DNA of 40,567 nucleotides, taken from IMG/VR virus record IMGVR_UViG_3300036770_000409, positions 1-40,567 of that record. One strand, 5' to 3'. The position numbers were made by a program, and so were the translations under genes. Numbering within the stretch: position 1 is the first letter of the stretch; the number at the start of each line of letters is the position of its first letter. The DNA is from a virus. The notes under the pieces were generated by a model. That model did not search any database, was not told the origin of the DNA, and saw nothing but the letters and a program-made list of their open reading frames with translations. Shown in pieces: positions 3,490-25,768 of this stretch.

Positions 3490-3695
3490 AAGACCTAATC
3501 GCTAGATTAAAAAGCAAGAAGACTAAGGCTGCATTTAAGTCTTATCTACGAGCTGTACTTGCATCAGCAATAACAATGGGTCTAGCACTAGCTGCTGACC
3601 TAGCACCTGAATATGCAATCCTAATCGGATCTATTGCAGGACCATTGGCTAAGTGGGCAGATAAGACTGAAAAAGAATACGGTCTGACTAAGTAG
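3486..3695 (+). CDS. Holin candidate
   Basis: A 69-residue protein with a basic N-terminal helix, a hydrophobic stretch at about residues 22-37 and a second at about 42-54, then a charged C-terminal tail. Two short membrane segments with charged ends suit a small holin. It overlaps the peptidase gene by ATGA and is followed at once by a strong terminator, so it closes the lysis unit. No sequence motif proves the role. Confidence 0.6.
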   Translation: MKDLIARLKSKKTKAAFKSYLRAVLASAITMGLALAADLAPEYAILIGSIAGPLAKWADKTEKEYGLTK

Positions 3696-3721
3696 TTTTA
3701 ACACCGCGAGGCAATACAGGG

Positions 3722-3749
3722 CCCCCTCTTCGGAGGGGGTTCTTTTTTT
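3722..3749 (+). terminator. Intrinsic terminator of the tail/lysis operon
   Basis: A perfect 7-bp stem CCCCCTC/GAGGGGG with a TTCG tetraloop (3722-3739) is followed by TTCTTTTTTT (3740-3749). It lies 27 bases after the holin-candidate stop codon. Confidence 0.92.
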
Positions 3750-3781
3750 ATGCCCTTTTTAACTGCACAGGATGGCGAGTT

Positions 3782-3798
3782 GCGCCTGTTTCAGGCGC
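3782..3798. other. Short perfect hairpin between convergent operons
   Basis: GCGCCTG/CAGGCGC with a three-base loop lies between the rightward lysis terminator and the end of the leftward HNH operon (3823). There is no T-run on either side. It may stop or protect the leftward transcript; the role is unknown. Confidence 0.5.
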
Positions 3799-3822
3799 GG
3801 GTAGGGATAATGTATGGGTAAA

Positions 3823-4185
3823 TCATAAAGACTGCTTATATGCCCCATCTTTATTTAATAGGGTCTTTAATCTATGGCAGTTAGCACATAGGGTTTGAAG
3901 GTTAATAGGGTCATTGTTCTTATTGTTGCCGTCAATGTGGTCTACATCTAGTTGGACTGTATGCTCAGCTACAAAGCCACATTTCTCACAGTGTTCTTTT
4001 TTATACTTCTTGTAAGGGTATTTTATTCTATCGTTGTTATCTAAATAAACACTCTTGCACCTATACCTAGATTTTGGGTTTGTATATCTAGAGTCTCTAA
4101 GTTTAATTTTTACTGGGCCACAAATAGAACAGTTAGCCTGTCTATTTACTTCATCTATATCTGTGAGCTTATGTGGCTCTAGCAT
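3823..4185 (-). CDS. HNH endonuclease (tandem copy 1)
   Basis: A 120-residue protein with an N-terminal CxxC (C19, C22), a second zinc pair (C66, C69), the HNH core DVDHIDGNNKN (D82, H83) and a last pair CANCH (C100, C103, H104). This is the zinc-stabilised HNH fold of small phage homing or nicking endonucleases. ATG 4185 overlaps the stop of the next upstream gene (TAATG). It is clearly paralogous to 4185-4589: the core LDVDHIDGN and the segment LQTLCANCHRLKT are shared, so the pair arose by tandem duplication and then diverged. Confidence 0.88.
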   Translation of the reverse strand: MLEPHKLTDIDEVNRQANCSICGPVKIKLRDSRYTNPKSRYRCKSVYLDNNDRIKYPYKKYKKEHCEKCGFVAEHTVQLDVDHIDGNNKNNDPINLQTLCANCHRLKTLLNKDGAYKQSL

Positions 4186-4589
4186 TACTCTTGGATGTAA
4201 TCAGGTTTATCTATTGGTGTGGGTACGATAAGTCCTTTTTTATAGGATCCTTCTTTGTTAATAAATGTTTTTAATCTATGGCAATTGGCGCACAAGGTCT
4301 GAAGATTACTAGGATCGTTGTTCTTACTATTGCCGTCTATATGATCTACGTCTAGCTGACACTTATTAATAGCCACAAAACCACATTGTTCGCAGTAAGT
4401 TTTCTTATGCTCTCTGTAGGGATAGGAGAATTTTAAAGTACCTCTACGGTGTACGGCTGAACATTTATATTTAGAATTTAAACTTGTTGATTTACTATTT
4501 CTTAATATAACTTTAACTAATCCACAAACAGAACAGGTACCAGATCTGTTAGATTCATTAACATTGGTTATGCTATGCGTTTCTTTCAA
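4185..4589 (-). CDS. HNH endonuclease (tandem copy 2)
   Basis: A 134-residue paralogue of 3823-4185 with the same zinc pairs, DVDHIDGN core and LCANCHRLKT motif. It differs by a C-terminal extension ending in a VPTPID motif that also closes the zinc-ribbon protein encoded just upstream. ATG 4589 overlaps that gene's stop codon (ATGA). Two adjacent free-standing HNH genes on the opposite strand to their neighbours are typical of mobile endonuclease cassettes. Confidence 0.88.
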   Translation of the reverse strand: MKETHSITNVNESNRSGTCSVCGLVKVILRNSKSTSLNSKYKCSAVHRRGTLKFSYPYREHKKTYCEQCGFVAINKCQLDVDHIDGNSKNNDPSNLQTLCANCHRLKTFINKEGSYKKGLIVPTPIDKPDYIQE

Positions 4590-4816
4590 TCTTCTGGTCT
4601 ATCTATAGGCGTGGGAACAAGCACAAGATTTCCACAGTTAGAACACTCACCGTCTAAGTGATACCAGGATAGTTGGTAATCGTAGAAGGATGCCATAATT
4701 GTAAAGGTCATAGAGCCACAAGGACAGGCGTGAAGAGGACCGAGATCTCTAAGATCTGAACCGAACTTCGGTGGGAGTTTCTCCCTGTTTTTAAACAGCC
4801 TTGGTAGACGGAACAT
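4586..4816 (-). CDS. Zinc-ribbon microprotein
   Basis: A 76-residue protein with a basic N-terminus (about residues 1-17), then CPCG (C31, C33) and CSNCG (C58, C61) making a probable single zinc ribbon, and a C-terminal VPTPID motif. It is the first gene of the leftward HNH operon. The start ATG 4816 follows AAGGGA, which is one arm of a hairpin (4822-4847). The function is not recognised; an RNA or DNA adaptor is possible. Confidence 0.7.
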   Translation of the reverse strand: MFRLPRLFKNREKLPPKFGSDLRDLGPLHACPCGSMTFTIMASFYDYQLSWYHLDGECSNCGNLVLVPTPIDRPED

Positions 4817-4821
4817 ATAAT

Positions 4822-4851
4822 CCCTTGTCTACGCAACCCGACAAGGGTTGC
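4822..4851 (-). promoter_or_regulatory. Two mutually exclusive hairpins over the ribosome binding site of the HNH operon
   Basis: On the minus strand the leader can fold in two ways. Stem B, CCCTTGTC/GACAAGGG (8 bp, 10-base loop), buries AAGGG, the binding site of ATG 4816. Stem A, GCAACCC/GGGTTGC (7 bp, 5-base loop), uses the same CCC bases and would free the site. This is the geometry of a bistable translational switch. The bases are read directly; the regulation is inferred. Confidence 0.6.
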
Positions 4852-4905
4852 CGTTAATTCGCCTTCGGCTCATATTGTACACATTCCGAACCCACTATTG
4901 ATGTT

Positions 4906-4930
4906 ATTACGGCCCTCGGCGTGTCGTAAT
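4906..4930. promoter_or_regulatory. Inverted repeat in the divergent intergenic region, operator candidate
   Basis: ATTACG (4906-4911) and CGTAAT (4925-4930) form a spaced palindrome upstream of the extended -10 element at 4957-4965, between the leftward HNH operon and the rightward early operon. Spacing suits a dimeric repressor; no cognate regulator can be named. Confidence 0.35.
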
Positions 4931-4956
4931 GTCATCCCACACTTTTGTTGTAGTAG

Positions 4957-4965
4957 TGGTATTAT
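4957..4965 (+). promoter_or_regulatory. Extended -10 promoter candidate of the early operon
   Basis: TGgTATTAT is an extended -10 element about 25 bases before the first gene of the rightward replication block. No good -35 is seen 17 bases upstream, which fits an extended -10 promoter. AGGAG at 4980-4984 then serves the TTG start at 4990. Confidence 0.45.
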
Positions 4966-4989
4966 TTACCTTAAGAGATAGGAGTTGAA

Positions 4990-5559
4990 TTGACCGCGAT
5001 AATTGGTATCCAGGGCAAAGGCTGGGCAGTATTAGCCTCAGATACTATGACTACCTATACTGACAAACCTTATATTGCCAAAGGCTATGACAAAATAGTT
5101 AAGGTTAATGAATATCTAATAGCTGTAGCAGGTGATGCTACTGCTGGAGATATTTTAAATAACTTATGGCAACCACCAAAGGTAATTAAAACTCAAGAGC
5201 CTGATCGCTTCTTAATGATTAGAGTTCTACCATCTATCAAACAAACATTAACTGATGCAGGGTATGACCCTGCGCCTAAGAATAAGAATGATGATGACTC
5301 TGGATGGGATGCTTTAATTTGTTTTAATGGAAAGATATATCAGATCAGTGATGACTATGGGTATATGAGAGATGATAGAAACTTATATGGCATAGGCTCA
5401 GGTGGGTCAATCGCTCTTGGTGCATTAGCTGCTATGGAGAGTGAGATTAGATCTCATACTAAAGCAGCGAGTGCTGCAAAGAAAGCAATTAACATTGCTA
5501 TCCAGTACAACGTATGGTGTGGTGGAGTACCAACCATCAAGACTCAGTTCACAAAGTAA
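4990..5559 (+). CDS. Proteasome-beta/HslV-like Ntn hydrolase
   Basis: A 189-residue protein with a TTG start behind AGGAG. After removal of Met the N-terminus would be Thr, the nucleophile of the Ntn family. Counting from that Thr, D17 lies in VLASDT and a Lys at about position 34 lies in YDKIVKV, matching the T1/D17/K33 triad of proteasome beta subunits and HslV. GIGSGGSIALGALAA matches the conserved GSGG region that places Ser129. The length matches HslV (about 175) and a propeptide-free beta subunit. It is the first gene of the early operon. It may form its own protease ring or assemble with host proteasome parts; no ATPase or alpha subunit is encoded here. The fold is a strong call, activity is inference. 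Confidence 0.82.
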   Translation: MTAIIGIQGKGWAVLASDTMTTYTDKPYIAKGYDKIVKVNEYLIAVAGDATAGDILNNLWQPPKVIKTQEPDRFLMIRVLPSIKQTLTDAGYDPAPKNKNDDDSGWDALICFNGKIYQISDDYGYMRDDRNLYGIGSGGSIALGALAAMESEIRSHTKAASAAKKAINIAIQYNVWCGGVPTIKTQFTK

Positions 5560-9948: not shown

Positions 9949-10584
9949 ATGACTAAAGAATTACACCCGATACTGAATGACCTAGTACCAGCAGTGGCTA
10001 ACTCTATTGCTCGTAAGTTTAAAGGTTGGGTAGAGCGAGATGATCTAAAGCAAGAACTTTATCTTTGGGCTATCGGTAGGCAAGGTCAATACTTAGATCA
10101 ACTTAATGAAGAGAACAAAGACAAGCGTGAATATAGTGTGAGCAGAATTGCATATCAGATGCGTAGAATTGCAGAGAAGTATGCTCGTAAAGAGAAGGCT
10201 CGCAAGGCTGGCTATCAGACCTCTGATGAGATCTTCTACGATACTGCAACTATCGCTAGGTTAATGCCATCTATCTTACAATCTGTAATAGAAGGAACTG
10301 TACTAGAGCAAGCACAAGATTTAATAAATGATGGACAACCTCGCAAACAACCAGCACCTTCTGAGGGTGGCAACCTCCTTGCTATCTTAATAGATGTAAA
10401 GAGATCATACTTAAAGTTAGAAGAAGAAGACAAGATCTTACTTCGTATGCGCTACTACGATAACAATACCCTTCAAGAGATATCACAATACCTAGAGGTA
10501 GCGGTATCCACTGCTGATCGCAGATGCACCTCAGCTCTGCGTAGATTGCAAGACTTGTTGGGTGGCGATTCGCCTTGGGCCTAG
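9949..10584 (+). CDS. Sigma-70-like factor
   Basis: A 211-residue protein with a region-2-like start (ARKFKGWVERDDLKQELYLWA), an intervening helical, partly disordered stretch and a clear region-4 helix-turn-helix at about residues 165-206 (TLQEISQYLEVAVSTADRR then SALRRL). This is the organisation of ECF-like sigma factors found in phages. It could direct host RNA polymerase to late phage promoters, possibly with the WhiB protein, which in this class binds sigma region 4. ATG 9949 has only a weak binding site. Confidence 0.72.
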   Translation: MTKELHPILNDLVPAVANSIARKFKGWVERDDLKQELYLWAIGRQGQYLDQLNEENKDKREYSVSRIAYQMRRIAEKYARKEKARKAGYQTSDEIFYDTATIARLMPSILQSVIEGTVLEQAQDLINDGQPRKQPAPSEGGNLLAILIDVKRSYLKLEEEDKILLRMRYYDNNTLQEISQYLEVAVSTADRRCTSALRRLQDLLGGDSPWA

Positions 10585-11679: not shown

Positions 11680-12424
11680 TCTCCAACACTAGATTGTAAT
11701 GCTCTGATCCTGATGGACCACCAGCTCCTTTATACCACTTAGAAGTTACAGTTGTTGTTACTCCTGGGTTGGTTGTAAGCCAGCCTGCTTCTCTAGTGCT
11801 TCTTGTAGAGTTGGAGGTAATGTCTTTCCTCTTTGCACTGTCCTGCGTAGTATTCCTTCGCAAGCCTTCGGACTTAAATAGTACTTCTGCTGCACTGAGT
11901 GGGTTTCCAGTGCGTTTTCCAACGATGAAGATACGCCTTCTCCTTTGGGGAACTCCGAAGTACTGAGCATCAAGCACCCGCCAGGCAACGCCATACCCGA
12001 TGTCGGCCATCGTTCCAATGACCACTCCAAAGTCTTGTCCTTTGTTAGAGGTAAGAAGACCAGGGACATTTTCAAGGATGAACCACTCAGTTTTCGTTTC
12101 TTCAATAAGTCTTGCAATCTCCCAGAATAATCCGCTTCTTTCTCCAGCAAGACCACGCCTCTTTCCAGCCACGCTAAGGTCTTGGCAGGGAAATCCGCCT
12201 GTGATAATTCCTCTATCAGGTTTAAATCCTGCTTCAATTAAATCACTTCCTTTCACATCTGTTATATCAGAGAACTGTTTAGCATTTGGAAAATGCTTAG
12301 CCAATACCTTTTGGCATTGTTTATCTATCTCAACATTAGCTACCACATCTACACCATTGCGTTCCATAGCAAGATCAAAGCCGCCAACGCCAGCGAAGAG
12401 CGATACCCCCGTTAACCTACTCAC
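11639..12424 (-). CDS. C5 cytosine methyltransferase, N-terminal catalytic fragment
   Basis: A 261-residue reading frame with motif I FAGVGG (10-15), motif IV PCQ (79-81, catalytic Cys80), motif VI ENV (118-120) and motif VIII QRRRR (160-164), as in Dcm-family enzymes that make 5-methylcytosine, often to evade host restriction. GTG 12424 shares one base with the preceding stop (TAGTG). The frame ends in TAA soon after the target-recognition region, before motifs IX and X, which continue in the next frame (11281-11679). Confidence 0.88.
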   Translation of the reverse strand: MSRLTGVSLFAGVGGFDLAMERNGVDVVANVEIDKQCQKVLAKHFPNAKQFSDITDVKGSDLIEAGFKPDRGIITGGFPCQDLSVAGKRRGLAGERSGLFWEIARLIEETKTEWFILENVPGLLTSNKGQDFGVVIGTMADIGYGVAWRVLDAQYFGVPQRRRRIFIVGKRTGNPLSAAEVLFKSEGLRRNTTQDSAKRKDITSNSTRSTREAGWLTTNPGVTTTVTSKWYKGAGGPSGSEHYNLVLENDDLVQQKSQSSE

Positions 12425-15245: not shown

Positions 15246-15672
15246 TAGATACCACGCTCTCACTAGAGAATAACCAGGATATGATCCCATCGTATAACTC
15301 TCTCATAGCAGCATATAAGTAAAGAGAGTTAAGATCGGTTAAAGTGTTGCCATTATGGTTAAAATCCATATCGGCCACCATTAGATCTAACGCAGGATAA
15401 GCCCATAGGCTTAGCTCCTGCACACGCTTATTTATGTTTACATAATAGTCTTCACACTCTCCATTAGCTAATTCTCCGACATAATCGCTTAGATCATCGG
15501 CGGAGTAATCTTTATCTTCATATATATAACCAGATAAATTACTTGCCGCATCTAGTATCTCACCGCGCCAATTAGGGCCGCCGACATAATCGGGAAGATG
15601 CTCCCATATATTAGATCCGCTTAGATCATCATCGGTAAGTGATAGTTTATTAAGTAGTTGATCCTTATTCAT
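15238..15672 (-). CDS. Acidic hypothetical protein, first gene of the leftward operon
   Basis: A 144-residue, strongly acidic protein rich in Asp, Asn, Tyr and Leu, with DDLSDYVGELANGECEDYY in the middle and helical stretches either side. No catalytic motif was recognised; the acidity would suit a DNA-mimic or an inhibitor, which is speculation. AGGAG lies seven bases before ATG 15672 and is buried in the stem 15679-15716. Confidence 0.6.
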   Translation of the reverse strand: MNKDQLLNKLSLTDDDLSGSNIWEHLPDYVGGPNWRGEILDAASNLSGYIYEDKDYSADDLSDYVGELANGECEDYYVNINKRVQELSLWAYPALDLMVADMDFNHNGNTLTDLNSLYLYAAMRELYDGIISWLFSSESVVSNA

Positions 15673-15678
15673 TATTAA

Positions 15679-15716
15679 CTCCTATCTTTTAACGGTTAAG
15701 GGTTAACCGATAGGAG
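15679..15716 (-). promoter_or_regulatory. Hairpin masking the ribosome binding site of the leftward operon
   Basis: On the minus strand CTCCTATC pairs with GATAGGAG, which contains the binding site of ATG 15672; inside it CGGTTAA/TTAACCG forms a second 7-bp stem with a 3-base loop. The result is a long two-part hairpin with the AGGAG sequence in its 3' arm. It may work as a thermometer, protein-binding site or timing device. Confidence 0.55.
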
Positions 15717-15718
15717 CA

Positions 15719-15742
15719 GGATATACCACCGTCTACCGTATA
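15719..15742 (-). repeat. Dispersed spacer element, copy S0
   Basis: Plus-strand CCACCGTCTACCGTATA with flanking GGATATA matches the copies at 14226-14250, 14592-14616 and 15046-15070, all in the same orientation and all lying in spacers upstream of leftward genes. Confidence 0.55.
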
Positions 15743-16335: not shown

Positions 16336-16480
16336 ACCCCTCACTTCGCTGTAGCTCGTTCGGGAGCGTAACGTTAAGTGAAGCGAACCGAACAGCACAC
16401 ACACACTTCGCGGCAGGTGTAATAGATTGATCGCTCCACTATCAATTTTCCTCCCCACTATGTAAAGTTATCTCGTGGAG

Positions 16481-20518: not shown

Positions 20519-20924
20519 AGCTCCAATGAATCCATTGGCTGGAGTCTCAGGTCCAGGTCCATTCTCCGTAAGAGATGATCAACTTAATTTAGGATCTGTA
20601 GCGTATGGTGAAGGACAAGAGACTGCTATGTTAAATACAGGAGCGCCTAAGTCTAAGACTCGTGGTATTGCAGATAATGTTGGTGGAAGACCAGCAGATC
20701 CATTAAAGCAAATAACTCCAGTAACTCCATTATTTGCTGACACTCAAAACAAAACTCAAGATATTATGACTGGTTCAAAAATAGGACCAGGTGCTGGACC
20801 AGAAGTATTAATGATGAAGAAAACTTCAGTTAAAACATCTGATACTTTAGCTCCACTATTACCTTTTGACACTACTGGTGAAATAGGTATTTTGTATCAG
20901 GATGCTTTATCGCGGGGTGATTAA
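20511..20924 (+). CDS. Hypothetical structural protein
   Basis: A 137-residue protein, low in order, rich in Gly, Pro and Thr, with no membrane segment or catalytic motif. It starts behind AAGGAG and its TAA shares one base with the ATG of the 1,614-residue protein. The location suggests a virion or assembly role. Confidence 0.55.
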   Translation: MAKAPMNPLAGVSGPGPFSVRDDQLNLGSVAYGEGQETAMLNTGAPKSKTRGIADNVGGRPADPLKQITPVTPLFADTQNKTQDIMTGSKIGPGAGPEVLMMKKTSVKTSDTLAPLLPFDTTGEIGILYQDALSRGD

Positions 20925-23900
20925 TGTCTGAGAGTTTAAAATCTGCTGCTTTAGCGGCAGGACTAACGCCAGAACAGCGAAAGAAACTTGATGATTTTAA
21001 TAAATCTCTTGCTGTACATAAAAATTTATCTAACCTACCTTCAGATGTAGCTAGTCAAGTTTACAATAATCTAGATCCCTCTCAACAAGCATCTTTACAG
21101 AAAAACTTTGGTAATGAAGATCCAGCATTAAAACCTAATCGCGGTTGGCTTGGAACTGCTTGGCACTATACAGGTGGTCAAGTTGCTAATGCTCTTGGTT
21201 ATGTAGGTAGTAAAACACTTGCTGGTTTAGGTAACGTATCAGATGCAATGACTCGTGCTTATCGTACTGCCGCTATTGCTATAGATCAAGATGTAAGTCT
21301 TGGTAATGCTTTTCGTATAGCCAATGATAAAGGTGATAAAGTATTTAGTCCTGGTCGTATTGGCGATGCTAAAGCAAGATGGGGAACAGAAGCAGTAGAT
21401 ATAGCAATGCGTATTGCTGCTGGCGAAAAACCTGAAGATATTTTTGCTTCTGCTACACCTGAACAACAAAAATATATAATGTTGGCAGACCCAAGACAGA
21501 ACAATATTCCAGGTATGGCACCTGATGAAATTTCAGCAGCAAGAGCAAATTTTCAAGATACTCTTGATGATGTACAAGCAGCGAAGTATTCTCCTGGTCG
21601 TCAATTTGCTAACCTTATTACACCTAAAGATATGGAAGGCTCAGGCCTTTTCTATAAAGCTGTATCGGGTACAGTAGATGCCGCATTTAGAGTTTTAGCT
21701 GATCCTTTATTAATTGCTGGTAAAGCAAAACGTTTGTATGATGCAAGCAAGTATGCACTTACTATGGCAACTGGTGGAGATAGAGTTGCAGATGTATTTT
21801 CCAAAGCACCTGTAATTAATTTCTGGGATCGTTATGGTGCTAAGTTAGATGAACTTTCTAAAGCACAGTCTGCAACAGTTAAGAATACTGAAGAAATTTT
21901 AAGAATTAAAAAAGACCTACAAATTTTAGCTCCTGAATACGGTCCTTCTGTAATACAAACATTTTTAAAAGCAGATGTTCCAGTAGTTAATGCTAAGACA
22001 GCACAAGCATTTTTTGAGAACACAAATCAATTAGATGAAATGCTTAAAGGATCTATTGGTCGTAGAAGAATTATCATCCCTAGACTAGATCCATTACGTA
22101 AGGCTCGTATTGCAGCAGTTACTACAGGTCGCACTGTACGCAACCTAGATGCTGTAGGTCCAAACCTAGTAGATGATATGTGGTTTGGTGGAGCAACTGA
22201 TGCCGATGGTATCGCTAAGACTATTATTAATGGTAAAGAAGAATTTATCAATATGGTTAAAGCATCTACTAAGCCTATTGATGTAGCTAGATTTTCTACT
22301 GCTTATATGAAGCAAAGAATAGACAGAGCAAAAGCAAAGTTTGTTCTTGCCCCATTATTTAGAGATGATGTATTTGATGTTACGGCAGCAGATGCCTCAG
22401 ATCAAATCTATCGTATTGCTAGAATGATTATGCCTAAGAGAGAATCTAGTTTACTAGCACAGGCATTTGATAGCATTGAAGAAGTAGGTAAAAGAAAAAG
22501 TGTTTACTATGGTCTATGGGGAACAGTCGCTGAAGTTCGCGGTTTAAATACTACTCAACCTGGTCAACAAATTGTTCGTTACCTAACTGGTAAATCTCAA
22601 GCACTTTATGGTTTAGATGATGCCTTTAGAGATAAGGGTGCATTACCTTCAGATTTTACACCACTTGCATCTGCTCCAAGTTTAAAAGATTTAGATAGAG
22701 CAGCAGGCCGTAATGGTTTATTTCAAAAATTAATGGGTGTTCCTAATACTCAATTTGCAGAACAAATGGTAAGTGCTTGGTCATTCTTAACTCTTGCTGG
22801 ACCTCGTTATGCACTTCGTAACGCAGGCGAAGATTTAATGATGAATCTTGCTATAGGTCAATCTCCTTGGGGATTAGCAAAGAATAGATATTTATCAACT
22901 CGTATTAATACATTTTTTGCTGCTGCTAAAAAGGCAGAAGGAACAGGTAAGATTAAATGGTCTGAAAACCCTCTTGGTTTTGCTATGCGTTTAGTAAATA
23001 AAAAAGAAGTGGATAATATTTCTGTAGAACTTACAGCATTAAAAACTAAATTTGATGATGCTAGTAAAGAATTAGTTAAACTAAAGAAAGATTTATCTAA
23101 AGCAACTGATCCTATAGACGTATCAGATATTGAACTTAAAATTAAAGAACTTGAGTATGTAACTCAAGGTGGATTAGTAAATCAGACTAGAGAAATCTTT
23201 GCTCGTACTTTGAGCGAAGGTAGAATCAATCGTCTTCGTCAAAGCCTTGGATTAAAACCATTAGCTAAAAATGAAATTGATATTGTTGCTGAGCAAATAA
23301 GATATGGCGATATTGAAAACGCCTTTGGTGTTGTTTCTGAGAGCGCATCTAACTTTGCTCTTGGCGCTACAGACTATATGAGCCGCGCTCAGAATTTAGT
23401 TAAAAGTACAGGTGTTAGAGCGCAAGCGCTTGAAATTAAAGGTCTTGGTAATTATGCCAAAAAACCTGGAGAAAGAGCCTTTGCTCCACGAGCTATATCT
23501 ATGCAAGATGAAGCCTCTATGTTTACCTGGATGTCTCGTATTGGATATTACGCCAACGATGACTTGGGTAAAATAGCAGTTGCTAACCTAGATAATGAAA
23601 AGGAATTTTTAAATCTAGGTCGTAAATGGTTACAAACCAAAACTGGACAACAGTATTTAAAAGATGCTCAATTATCTAATAATATGAGTGAATCTGAATT
23701 ATTGACTCTTGCCTTTAACCGTACTAGGTCTCATTTCGTTAAACGTAATGGAGATCTAAATGAAGATCTTTTGAACAAGATCAGAATTAAAGATAAGAAT
23801 GGTAAGTGGAAAGTAGAAGGACAGCTTTCTATTGATGATATGCCTACTAATGATGCAGATATTCCATCTGCAATTATTGGACCAACTCTTGTTCCAGTAG

Positions 23901-25768
23901 TAGAGGCAAATCAACTTACCTCAAATGTTATGACCTCAGGATGGTCTTGGCTTGGATTAGCAAATGCTCGTATGTCTCGCCAGCCTTTAGTTCTTAATGA
24001 GATGGTAGCAATTCGTAAAGAAATGCGTAAATCTGGTTTTGAACAAAAATGGATTGAAGCACATATCAGAGATATAAACCCAGAAAATAAAACTGGTATT
24101 GCTATTGCTACAGAAAGAGCTAAAAAAGCATTGGCAACTGCTGTAGAAGATAGAGCAGTAAATCAAATTTTAAAATATGTAGATAATCCACTTGTTAGAA
24201 CTCAGATTGCTTTTACATCTCGTAACTTTGCTCGGTTTTATAGAGCAACTGAAGACTTTTATCGCCGTATGTATAGGGTTGTTCGCTACAATCCAGAGGC
24301 TCTTGTTAAGGCAGCACTTACTTACGAAGGTGTAACCCACTCAGGATGGGTGCAAAAGGATGATCAAGGTGAAGATTACTTTGTTTATCCTGGTCTTGCA
24401 CCAGTTTATAACGCAGTTCAAGATGTATTATCTCGTCTAGGTATTGCAGATGAGTTTAAGACCCCATTTCCTGTAGAGTTTGGCGCTAAATTAAAGATGA
24501 TTACTCCATCTTTAAACCCAGATTCTTTGGTACCTACATTCTCAGGTCCATTAGCTGGAGCAAGCGTTAAAACAATTACAACTTTACTAGGTTTTGTTGA
24601 TGAAAAATCAGCAGATAGTTTAGATGGATATCTATTAGGTAAATATTCTGTAGATAGACCTATTCTTTCAGCATTACTGCCAGCACATATTAATCGTTTA
24701 GTTGGTGCATTAGATACCGATGAGCGTAATTCTCAATATGCAAGTGCTTGGCGTAAGGCAGTCACATATCTTGAGGCTTCAGGCAATGGTCTACCAAAGA
24801 GATATGATGATGAAGGTAATCTATTACCTCCTACCTCTGCAGAGCAAGAGGAATATCGGATAAGAGTAAAGAATACAACTCTTGGAGTTTTAAGAGTTCG
24901 TTTTGCTGTAGGCTTTTTAGCTCCAGCATCACCTCAAGTTCAACTTAAATCTGATATGGCACAATGGATTAGTGATAATGGTCGCGCTAACTGGAAGCAA
25001 GCATTTAATAATCTACTAGATAAATATCCTGGTGATTACGATGCTGCTATGGCCAAGTGGGTAGAGTTATTCCCTAACCAAGTTCCATATACAGTAACTG
25101 AATCAGAGCGTAAGTCTATTGCACCACTCAAGTATGCTGAAGAATCAGGATACTTCGTAGATAACAATAGAGAATTATTTAAAGATTTCCCTAATGCAGC
25201 AGCATTTTTAATACCTCATAAAACTGGTTTCTCTTGGGATACCTATCAAATTATGAGGGAAATGGGTATGAGTTATAATAAGAGAGTAGATGACTATCTA
25301 AGAGAGGTTCAAACAGCCTCAGATCTACAAACTTATTATAAGAGAAAAGAAGCATTTGAATCTTCTTTAGAGAACTCAACTGTAGACTTTGAAAGAACTC
25401 AACTACGCAAAGAGTTTGACCAATGGAAAGATGTATTTTTTGCTGCTCGCCCATTAGTCAGAGAAGAGTTGGGTACAACAGGTTCTCAAAGAGCTGCTAA
25501 TCGTTTAAACACTTTAGATGAATTAGATAATATGCTTGCTCAGAACATAGGTATCAGAAAAGATGTTCAAGATAAACTTAGAGAAATGTCTAGTATCTAT
25601 AGAGAATACAAAGACGAAAAGGCAAGATACGATGAGTTTGGCGGATCTCAAAAATTAATTAAGTATCTAAAAGACGATACTATTATTAAGTTAAGAGAGT
25701 TAGCTCTTTATAATGAAAATACACAAGCAGTATACGATGTCTTATTTGGCAGATTGTTAGGAGATTAA
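20924..25768 (+). CDS. Giant internal virion/ejection protein candidate
   Basis: A 1,614-residue, mostly helical protein, the largest in the window. Features by eye: a Gly-rich amphipathic part near residues 70-110, an uncharged patch (SAWSFLTLAGPRYALRN) near residue 620, a coiled-coil stretch near 695-745 and a charged helical C-terminal third. It lies between portal and capsid genes, where short-tailed phages carry internal core proteins ejected with the DNA (the T7 gp16/N4 vRNAP position), and no tape measure exists elsewhere. No peptidase, transglycosylase or polymerase motif was recognised. Confidence 0.6.
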   Translation: MSESLKSAALAAGLTPEQRKKLDDFNKSLAVHKNLSNLPSDVASQVYNNLDPSQQASLQKNFGNEDPALKPNRGWLGTAWHYTGGQVANALGYVGSKTLAGLGNVSDAMTRAYRTAAIAIDQDVSLGNAFRIANDKGDKVFSPGRIGDAKARWGTEAVDIAMRIAAGEKPEDIFASATPEQQKYIMLADPRQNNIPGMAPDEISAARANFQDTLDDVQAAKYSPGRQFANLITPKDMEGSGLFYKAVSGTVDAAFRVLADPLLIAGKAKRLYDASKYALTMATGGDRVADVFSKAPVINFWDRYGAKLDELSKAQSATVKNTEEILRIKKDLQILAPEYGPSVIQTFLKADVPVVNAKTAQAFFENTNQLDEMLKGSIGRRRIIIPRLDPLRKARIAAVTTGRTVRNLDAVGPNLVDDMWFGGATDADGIAKTIINGKEEFINMVKASTKPIDVARFSTAYMKQRIDRAKAKFVLAPLFRDDVFDVTAADASDQIYRIARMIMPKRESSLLAQAFDSIEEVGKRKSVYYGLWGTVAEVRGLNTTQPGQQIVRYLTGKSQALYGLDDAFRDKGALPSDFTPLASAPSLKDLDRAAGRNGLFQKLMGVPNTQFAEQMVSAWSFLTLAGPRYALRNAGEDLMMNLAIGQSPWGLAKNRYLSTRINTFFAAAKKAEGTGKIKWSENPLGFAMRLVNKKEVDNISVELTALKTKFDDASKELVKLKKDLSKATDPIDVSDIELKIKELEYVTQGGLVNQTREIFARTLSEGRINRLRQSLGLKPLAKNEIDIVAEQIRYGDIENAFGVVSESASNFALGATDYMSRAQNLVKSTGVRAQALEIKGLGNYAKKPGERAFAPRAISMQDEASMFTWMSRIGYYANDDLGKIAVANLDNEKEFLNLGRKWLQTKTGQQYLKDAQLSNNMSESELLTLAFNRTRSHFVKRNGDLNEDLLNKIRIKDKNGKWKVEGQLSIDDMPTNDADIPSAIIGPTLVPVVEANQLTSNVMTSGWSWLGLANARMSRQPLVLNEMVAIRKEMRKSGFEQKWIEAHIRDINPENKTGIAIATERAKKALATAVEDRAVNQILKYVDNPLVRTQIAFTSRNFARFYRATEDFYRRMYRVVRYNPEALVKAALTYEGVTHSGWVQKDDQGEDYFVYPGLAPVYNAVQDVLSRLGIADEFKTPFPVEFGAKLKMITPSLNPDSLVPTFSGPLAGASVKTITTLLGFVDEKSADSLDGYLLGKYSVDRPILSALLPAHINRLVGALDTDERNSQYASAWRKAVTYLEASGNGLPKRYDDEGNLLPPTSAEQEEYRIRVKNTTLGVLRVRFAVGFLAPASPQVQLKSDMAQWISDNGRANWKQAFNNLLDKYPGDYDAAMAKWVELFPNQVPYTVTESERKSIAPLKYAEESGYFVDNNRELFKDFPNAAAFLIPHKTGFSWDTYQIMREMGMSYNKRVDDYLREVQTASDLQTYYKRKEAFESSLENSTVDFERTQLRKEFDQWKDVFFAARPLVREELGTTGSQRAANRLNTLDELDNMLAQNIGIRKDVQDKLREMSSIYREYKDEKARYDEFGGSQKLIKYLKDDTIIKLRELALYNENTQAVYDVLFGRLLGD

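Follow-up and report, generated by a model that had tools for sequence, protein, structure and literature searches.

Introduction

In translational riboswitches and RNA thermometers, the Shine-Dalgarno (SD) sequence is masked in one of two alternative conformers. The locus described here, the 5' region of a small zinc-ribbon gene on the minus strand of a 40,567-base stretch of viral DNA (IMG/VR record IMGVR_UViG_3300036770_000409; hereafter the window), resembles them in that one conformer, the hairpin P2, masks an SD-like sequence (Table 1). It differs from them in that the masked SD occurs in one clade only, and Rfam scans ruled out a known RNA family both for the window (no match at gathering score; the best match in the leader, with E 4.8, lies below its gathering score) and for the leader of the relative L047 (positions 12080-12400, no match up to E 5). 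In the open-access literature, no title or abstract opening was found that describes such a leader.

Type I toxin mRNAs such as aapA3 are described as carrying short local hairpins with the anti-SD a few nucleotides away and with competing folds ordered by transcription (PMC6733600). As in aapA3 and hok, the predicted P2 ties up the SD with an anti-SD close by and could be displaced by a rival fold of similar energy, the conserved hairpin P1 having -12.5 kcal/mol alone and P2 -13.2 kcal/mol alone in the fold model of the window, a gap of 0.7 kcal/mol. Unlike in those systems, neither a toxin nor an antisense RNA was noticed in the features examined here, and P1 is common to relatives that have no SD, in most of which it probably falls in coding sequence. 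By analogy, P2 may work like the metastable hairpins that sequester the SD in toxin mRNAs, which does not imply membership of that group.

A further comparison is offered by genes without a leader. A TANNNT hexamer about 12 bp before the start is reported as a mark of leaderless genes, which make up more than 20% of the genes in Actinobacteria (PMC3160421), and a 5'-terminal ATG or GTG is reported to be sufficient in mycobacteria (PMC4633059). Most relatives of the locus, though not the window itself, share with these genes a TANNNT 6-7 nt before a GTG; unlike them, they carry two structures, the mini-hairpin P0 around the GTG and, some 20 nt further downstream, a hairpin that covaries, and the clade of the window has AAGGG and ATG instead. 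P0, and only P0, is also reminiscent of the hairpin promoters of the N4 virion RNA polymerase, described as GC-rich mini-hairpins with a C-G closure and a G..A loop near the start (PMC4496689), but its stable features (the G-A tandem and the GTGA or GAA loop) lie on the sense strand and not on the template.

Table 1. Coordinates of the features at the zinc-ribbon locus of the window
Feature	Position	Strand	Basis
TACAAT, -10-like hexamer (relatives mostly TAYAAT or TAAAAT)	4874..4879	-	sequence, comparison
P0: AT-GA-GCC-GAA-GGC-GA-AT, tandem G-A mismatches	4857..4873	-	window and relatives
P1, conserved hairpin: 7-bp stem GCAACCC (4851-4845) / GGGTTGC (4839-4833), loop TTGTC (4844-4840)	4833..4851	-	sequence
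P2, 8-bp stem over AAGGG: CCCTTGTC (4847-4840) / GACAAGGG (4829-4822), loop 4839-4830; excludes P1	4822..4847	-	sequence
Third hairpin GUAGAC..GGGAU / GUUCC..GUCUAC, takes the SD and AUG; window subtype only	4804..4832	-	predicted fold
AAGGG, Shine-Dalgarno-like, 5 nt ahead of ATG 4816	4822..4826	-	sequence
TCCGTCTACC at the start of the zinc-ribbon ORF, codons almost invariant	4803..4812	-	comparison of relatives
76-aa zinc-ribbon protein (CPCGS...CSNCGN), first gene of a leftward operon	4586..4816	-	ORF list
HNH endonuclease gene, downstream	4185..4589	-	PF01844, E 2.4e-07
Second HNH gene, downstream	3823..4185	-	PF01844, E 3.3e-07

Two mutually exclusive hairpins in the window

Read on the minus strand, the region runs TACAAT-ATGAGCC-GAA-GGCGAATTAACG-GCAACCC-TTGTC-GGGTTGC-GTA-GACAAGGG-ATTAT-ATG. 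The 5' arms of P1 and P2 have CCC (4847-4845) in common and the 3' arm of P1 forms the loop of P2, which makes two perfect stems that exclude each other. An earlier note on this DNA had proposed two stems at 4822-4851 that share three bases and cannot coexist, the 8-bp one masking AAGGG; both statements hold at exactly these coordinates. The same note had seen the same principle at 15679-15716, a parallel that fails because the stems there are compatible: in the fold model, 15665-15725 (minus strand) forms one nested hairpin, CTCCTATC..GATAGGAG, over the SD.

Overlapping pairs were counted among Watson-Crick stems of 7 bp or longer whose loops span 3-12 bases, with one stem of at least 8 bp and at least 3 bases in common; by this count the site is the sole one in the 40,567-base window, and it was returned on both strands. 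Such a pair also arises somewhere in 39 of 300 dinucleotide shuffles of the window (13%, mean 0.14), and the window has more stems than its shuffles do (57, against 27.1). Taken alone, the pair is therefore only mildly unusual, and the weight of the argument is carried by the relatives. An SD-like sequence is common, being present by the same simple pattern at 28 of the 42 listed ORF starts of the window. A reading of P1 or P2 as an intrinsic terminator or attenuator was ruled out, as no T run follows the hairpin and a scan of 3690-5100 gave no terminator-like site at either stem.

Relatives of the zinc-ribbon gene

Relatives of the zinc-ribbon gene were collected in IMG/VR by protein search (42), by profile search (525 stretches, of which the best 80 were used) and by a DNA-pattern search (at least 120 stretches), while further patterns gave 27, 1, 46 and 48 stretches, many of them unrelated. 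The protein, DNA-pattern and profile searches yielded 242 loci, from which the main set of 115 distinct leaders was derived; earlier counts refer to a set of 102 distinct leaders, 100 of which were aligned (L095 and L159 were left out). Ten of the 242 loci gave no leader (L042, L068, L095, L116, L128, L136, L139, L148, L151 and L159) owing to a missing anchor, a cut at the contig end or a miss by the script. The window's own record (L043) was excluded and one row labelled as family (L295) was judged by its sequence to be a chance match. As the sequences are related, counts of leaders are not counts of independent events. Furthermore, L044-L163 were found by a DNA pattern that fixed most letters of P0 and the GTG, with positions 8 and 23 left free, so that conservation of the fixed letters in these loci results partly from selection by the search.

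The most distant relative, L042, has neither hairpin, no CCGTCTAC motif and none of the other features. No relative was confirmed among genome contigs, and two phage records gave weak matches. The terminase of the window is closest to two unannotated records (45%), followed by Streptomyces phages (42%), and it is from this proximity, the sole basis for the assignment, that we infer an actinobacterial host. The ORF of the terminase large subunit itself begins with a GTG 6 nt past TAAAGT (16463-16477, plus strand) with no SD by the simple pattern and is possibly a leaderless late gene.

P1 is an old stem-loop under selection

All 102 distinct leaders of the earlier set have, in the place of P1, a stem of 6 bp or more that includes no fewer than 5 G-C pairs, compared with 4.3% of 5,100 shuffles, and in the larger set a P1 stem of 6-8 bp occurs in all 115. 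The 5' arms differ widely, each being matched by its own complement: GCAACCC, GCGGCGC, GTGCCCC, GCGCCCY, GCGGCCC, GCGTCCC, GCGACCC, GCAGCCC and GCGCTACC. Six of the seven P1 pairs show double changes, with 2-4 pair types each, and the sister leaders L052/L162 and L087/L127 are exactly two nucleotides apart, both differences lying in P1 and compensating each other. When whole 3' arms were dealt among the 14 distinct arm pairs, mean pairing fell to 77.9% from 100%, a value that is true by construction as P1 was counted by a script from the best hairpin of each sequence; the evidence proper comes from the comparison with shuffles, the variety of pair types and the two sister pairs. An RNAalifold consensus on a plain MAFFT alignment recovered P0 as the only structure because the arms of P1 misalign between groups.

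As very different letters keep pairing in the same place and at the same size, the comparison identifies P1 as an old stem-loop under selection. This selection seems to act on structure rather than on the peptide, since conservation is lacking in the residues that would be read from P1: between two members of the largest group, codons 6-16, which span P1, differ on average by 5.38 nonsynonymous and 0.87 synonymous changes, whereas the figures for the body of the ORF are 10.81 nonsynonymous and 15.97 synonymous.

A probable shift from a leaderless GTG to an ATG behind P1

A GTG located 6-7 nt past the TANNNT hexamer begins an open zinc-ribbon frame in 95 of the 115 distinct leaders; the fairer count is 36 of 54, obtained from leaders found through the protein, because the DNA pattern had fixed the GTG. 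The distance from the open GTG to a conserved CGT codon takes six values (60, 63, 66, 69, 72 or 75 nt), all multiples of 3. A well supported inference from these counts is that most relatives have a leaderless start, with translation beginning from a GTG that forms the 5' end of the mRNA or lies close to it. P1 would then probably lie in coding sequence in these relatives, about 20 nt in, since the zinc-ribbon ORF is open from upstream of it.

Twenty leaders lack the open GTG, five with a GTG out of frame (L030, L032, L035, L063 and L186) and 15 with none. All 20 have an in-frame ATG no more than 6 codons ahead of the conserved CGT, as opposed to 5 of the 95 leaders with the open GTG. An SD-like match precedes this ATG in the window's clade (9 leaders) and in L172, and in none of the other 10; leaders of the L003 type have neither GTG nor SD-like sequence. 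The window has neither ATG nor GTG at its predicted 5' end, the loop of P0 being GAA and not GTGA, and its ATG stands behind P1. As every leader without the open GTG carries such an ATG, the lineage of the window seems to have shifted its start to the far side of P1, with a masked SD added in the window's clade. An upstream ORF at the hexamer (ATG-AGC-CGA) was ruled out, several relatives having ACG for ATG and the frames ending early.

From the position of the hexamer TACAAT, transcription is predicted to begin near 4867, some 16 nt before the first arm of P1 is reached, and a start inside that arm is thus not indicated. The window also encodes a sigma-factor-like protein (Sigma70_r4, 9949-10584, plus strand), which might read TAYAAT promoters.

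The P0 mini-hairpin: RNA or DNA

The pattern AT-GA-(GCC, GC or GT)-loop-(GGC, GC or AC)-GA-AT fits 114 of the 115 distinct leaders, L001 being the exception. Among the 114, the loop is GTGA in 100, GAA in 7, GTA in 4, ATA in 2 and AAA in 1, and the lower (outer) pair, T-A in 94 leaders and C-G in the other 20, has no mixed form among them. The mixed pair C..A, searched for separately, turned up in one stretch, which is not a relative; the mixed pair T..G was covered only by the DNA-pattern search, among the matches listed. The spacing of the arms varies by whole base pairs. A kinship of GAGCCGTGAGGCGAA with hammerhead stem II was considered and ruled out, as position 23 covaries (A/G) with position 8 and the core letters differ from those of the hammerhead.

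The G-A tandem and the GNRA-type loop sit on the sense strand, which points to P0 acting at the RNA level. In the window, P0 straddles the predicted transcription start, and here the strongest tension in the data arises: the signal requires a folded 5' arm, and in a leaderless mRNA with TANNNT as the -10 transcription would begin only after that arm. Taking TACAAT as the -10, an untranscribed 5' arm covaries with the 3' arm, as might be expected were the hairpins to act as DNA, with P0, P1 and the upstream inverted repeats serving as protein sites or extruded hairpins in the divergent promoter region of the zinc-ribbon and proteasome-like genes. This explanation, which we regard as improbable, would also accommodate the P0 loops GAA and GTA with their C-G closure, resembling the loop rules reported for N4 hairpin promoters (PMC4496689), and the sequence GGCGTGTC, which is found in either orientation within 100 nt upstream of the hexamer in 108 of the 114 leaders with enough sequence (4917-4926 in the window). 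It is hard to reconcile with letters of P1 that change freely, unlike those of a protein site, with a spacing of the P0 arms that varies by whole base pairs and with G-A tandems and GTGA loops on the sense strand. The first 8 positions of P1 likewise show 25 T-G against 7 C-A, a count biased by a stem finder that accepts T-G.

A polymerase of the N4 kind was sought in a 1,614-aa protein encoded at 20924-25768 (plus strand) between the portal and capsid region, which has a weak match to a PHROG of unknown function (E 0.0007) and no Pfam match (E 0.01). None of the RNA polymerase motifs compared was found in this virion-region protein, which counts slightly against the DNA reading, and its identity as a virion RNA polymerase was provisionally set aside. 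In the upstream region of L037, TACTAG repeats are present (2845-2899); none were found for L230.

The structures could also belong to a rightward transcript, in that TAAACA-18-TATAAT at 4792-4821 (plus strand), a promoter-like site that matches 10 of 12 consensus positions and overlaps the zinc-ribbon start codon, would place antisense P1 and P0 in the leader of the operon at 4990, where the proteasome-like gene has its own SD-like sequence. We consider this very unlikely: two promoter-like sites were found where shuffles lead one to expect 3.9, the TATAAT is by eye not kept in leaders of the L003 or L025 type, and it is only when read on the minus (sense) strand that the G-A tandems and the GNRA-like loops are meaningful.

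P2 is confined to the clade of the window

When the 115 distinct leaders were scanned for mutually exclusive stems of whatever sequence, with at least 7 bp in each stem, a pair was present in 9, the remaining 106 having P1 only. The expectation that relatives would keep both stems thus holds for all nine leaders of the window's clade, in which two exclusive stems of near-equal energy include one over the SD, and fails outside it. P2 occurs in two forms, CCCTTGTC/GACAAGGG in four leaders (the window, L001, L002 and L012) and ACCCTTGC/GCAAGGGT in five (L016, L018, L021, L022 and L023). Compared with the window, T4841 is missing from the 5' arm of the second form, G replaces A4828 in its 3' arm and an additional A-U pair stands at the base of the stem, so that 8 bp stay in spite of differences in both arms. 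The stem energies of the L016 subtype are again near-equal (-12.4 and -13.5 kcal/mol), so that P1 alone and P2 alone lie no more than 1.1 kcal/mol apart in both subtypes. The change in both arms with pairing kept amounts to one transition between two subtypes.

Four leaders (L004, L007, L008 and L014) are nearly identical to the window upstream but have no P2 and a different P1 module, GCGGCGC, which looks like the result of a module exchange. Among the loci compared, every family leader with the window-type P1 also has AAGGG.

The comparison suggests that the hairpin pair of the window is a real but lineage-specific candidate switch. The main rival, possible but the less favoured, holds that P1 is functional and P2 a by-product: a template switch would have copied CCCTTGTC reverse-complemented before the ATG, and the copy would have been kept for the SD that it supplies and not for masking it. 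The confinement of the exclusive P2 to one clade fits this account, as does the coincidence of the SD and the new arm in that clade. Template switching has been reported to make perfect hairpins and concerted changes of both arms in a single event (PMC8794818), and it could have produced in one step the single transition on which P2 rests. A by-product would, on the other hand, not be expected to keep 8 bp and near-equal energies in both subtypes after several differences, and no family leader among the loci compared has the window-type P1 without AAGGG.

Folding in the context of the first codons

Access to the SD in the candidate switch is predicted to depend on how much of the mRNA is considered. 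The earlier note had in view a leader of about 40 bases, and a leader that ends one base before the ATG does show both stems in the fold model, with P1 at 0.37 and P2 at 0.62. The first codons alter this balance: from the predicted 5' end to 21 nt counted from the A of the ATG, the window is predicted to form P1 at 1.00 and P2 at 0.00, the cause being a pairing of GUAGAC..GGGAU with GUUCC..GUCUAC that spans the start codon. The claim that P1 frees AAGGG is therefore only partly true in the model, since this third hairpin competes for the SD and leaves AAGGG 41% unpaired in the fold that includes the first codons.

The predictions differ by subtype. The third hairpin is weaker in L012 and is not predicted for the L016 subtype, in which P2 reaches 0.56-1.00 in the five sequences, as opposed to the P1 at 1.00 of the full-length window type.

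The zinc-ribbon gene and its operon

The zinc-ribbon protein of the window gave no match in Pfam (E 0.001), PHROG (0.01) or NCBIfam (0.1), and the profile of its family gave none in the PDB (E 1). A structure model has a mean pLDDT of 74.8, its best fold match in the PDB having E 3.4. The region had been described as the leader of an HNH/zinc-ribbon operon; it is the leader of the zinc-ribbon gene, and the HNH genes seem to be optional, as the filtered ORF lists of L016 and L026 contain no HNH gene behind the zinc-ribbon gene, which rules out HNH as its constant partner.

The start of the zinc-ribbon ORF is nearly unchanged among the relatives. The motif CCGTCTAC is present in 118 of 118 uncut loci found by the pattern, among the matches listed, CGTCTAC in 80 of 80 loci found by the profile (the best 80 of 525) and the ORF-start motif in 41 of 42 loci of the protein search, with L042 as the exception. 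In the body of the ORF, by contrast, two members of a group differ on average at 7.8-18.4 codons synonymously, depending on the group. Retention of the same codons at nearly all loci suggests that TCCGTCTACC also serves as a signal in the DNA or RNA.

A model of the locus and its meaning

These observations can be joined into one model, to which we attach about even confidence and which combines a selected P1 at the 5' start of an mRNA, a shift from leaderless to ATG-led translation and P2 as a metastable translational brake. The region would be the 5' start of a phage zinc-ribbon mRNA, and P1 would most likely act there as an RNA hairpin close to the 5' end, modulating either initiation or the first steps of elongation. 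In the window's lineage, where GTG is absent, translation would proceed from the ATG behind P1. In the window's clade an SD would have been added whose complement falls within P1, partly in its 5' arm and partly in its loop, and the same P1 bases would thereby have been recruited into an alternative that masks the SD. With moderate confidence, P1 is expected to form first during transcription, leaving the SD to ribosomes or to the weak start-codon hairpin; once P1 is opened or remodelled, P2 may shut over the SD and reduce translation. P2 or the third hairpin would then decide access to the SD, and translation of the zinc-ribbon (and HNH) operon would in effect be held back by a metastable brake. 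Several observations speak against the model: the predicted folds disagree between the subtypes, overlapping stems arise in 13% of shuffled windows, P2 has a single transition behind it, the residues encoded along P1 vary, the covarying 5' arm of P0 would be left out of a leaderless mRNA, five leaders have their GTG out of frame, the L003 type has neither GTG nor SD-like sequence, and L042 has none of the features.

A bolder and rather doubtful version takes the locus as a phage 5' element that has no SD in most of its members. Here the tandem-GA mini-hairpin would present the GUG in a GNRA-type loop, and the hairpin about 20 nt downstream, in coding sequence, would set the engagement of the ribosome, the clade of the window having made an SD-masking switch from this scaffold. 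If this were true, the element, known from more than 100 distinct sequences with clear covariation and with no Rfam match in the window, would be a new class of cis-regulatory RNA that has moved between leaderless and SD-led initiation.

Transitions of genes between leaderless and SD-led initiation are hard to watch, and in this phage family a single gene appears to show both states. A structured element appears to have been kept across the change of start, and an SD-masking stem to have been added in one branch, which makes the transition testable with reporters.
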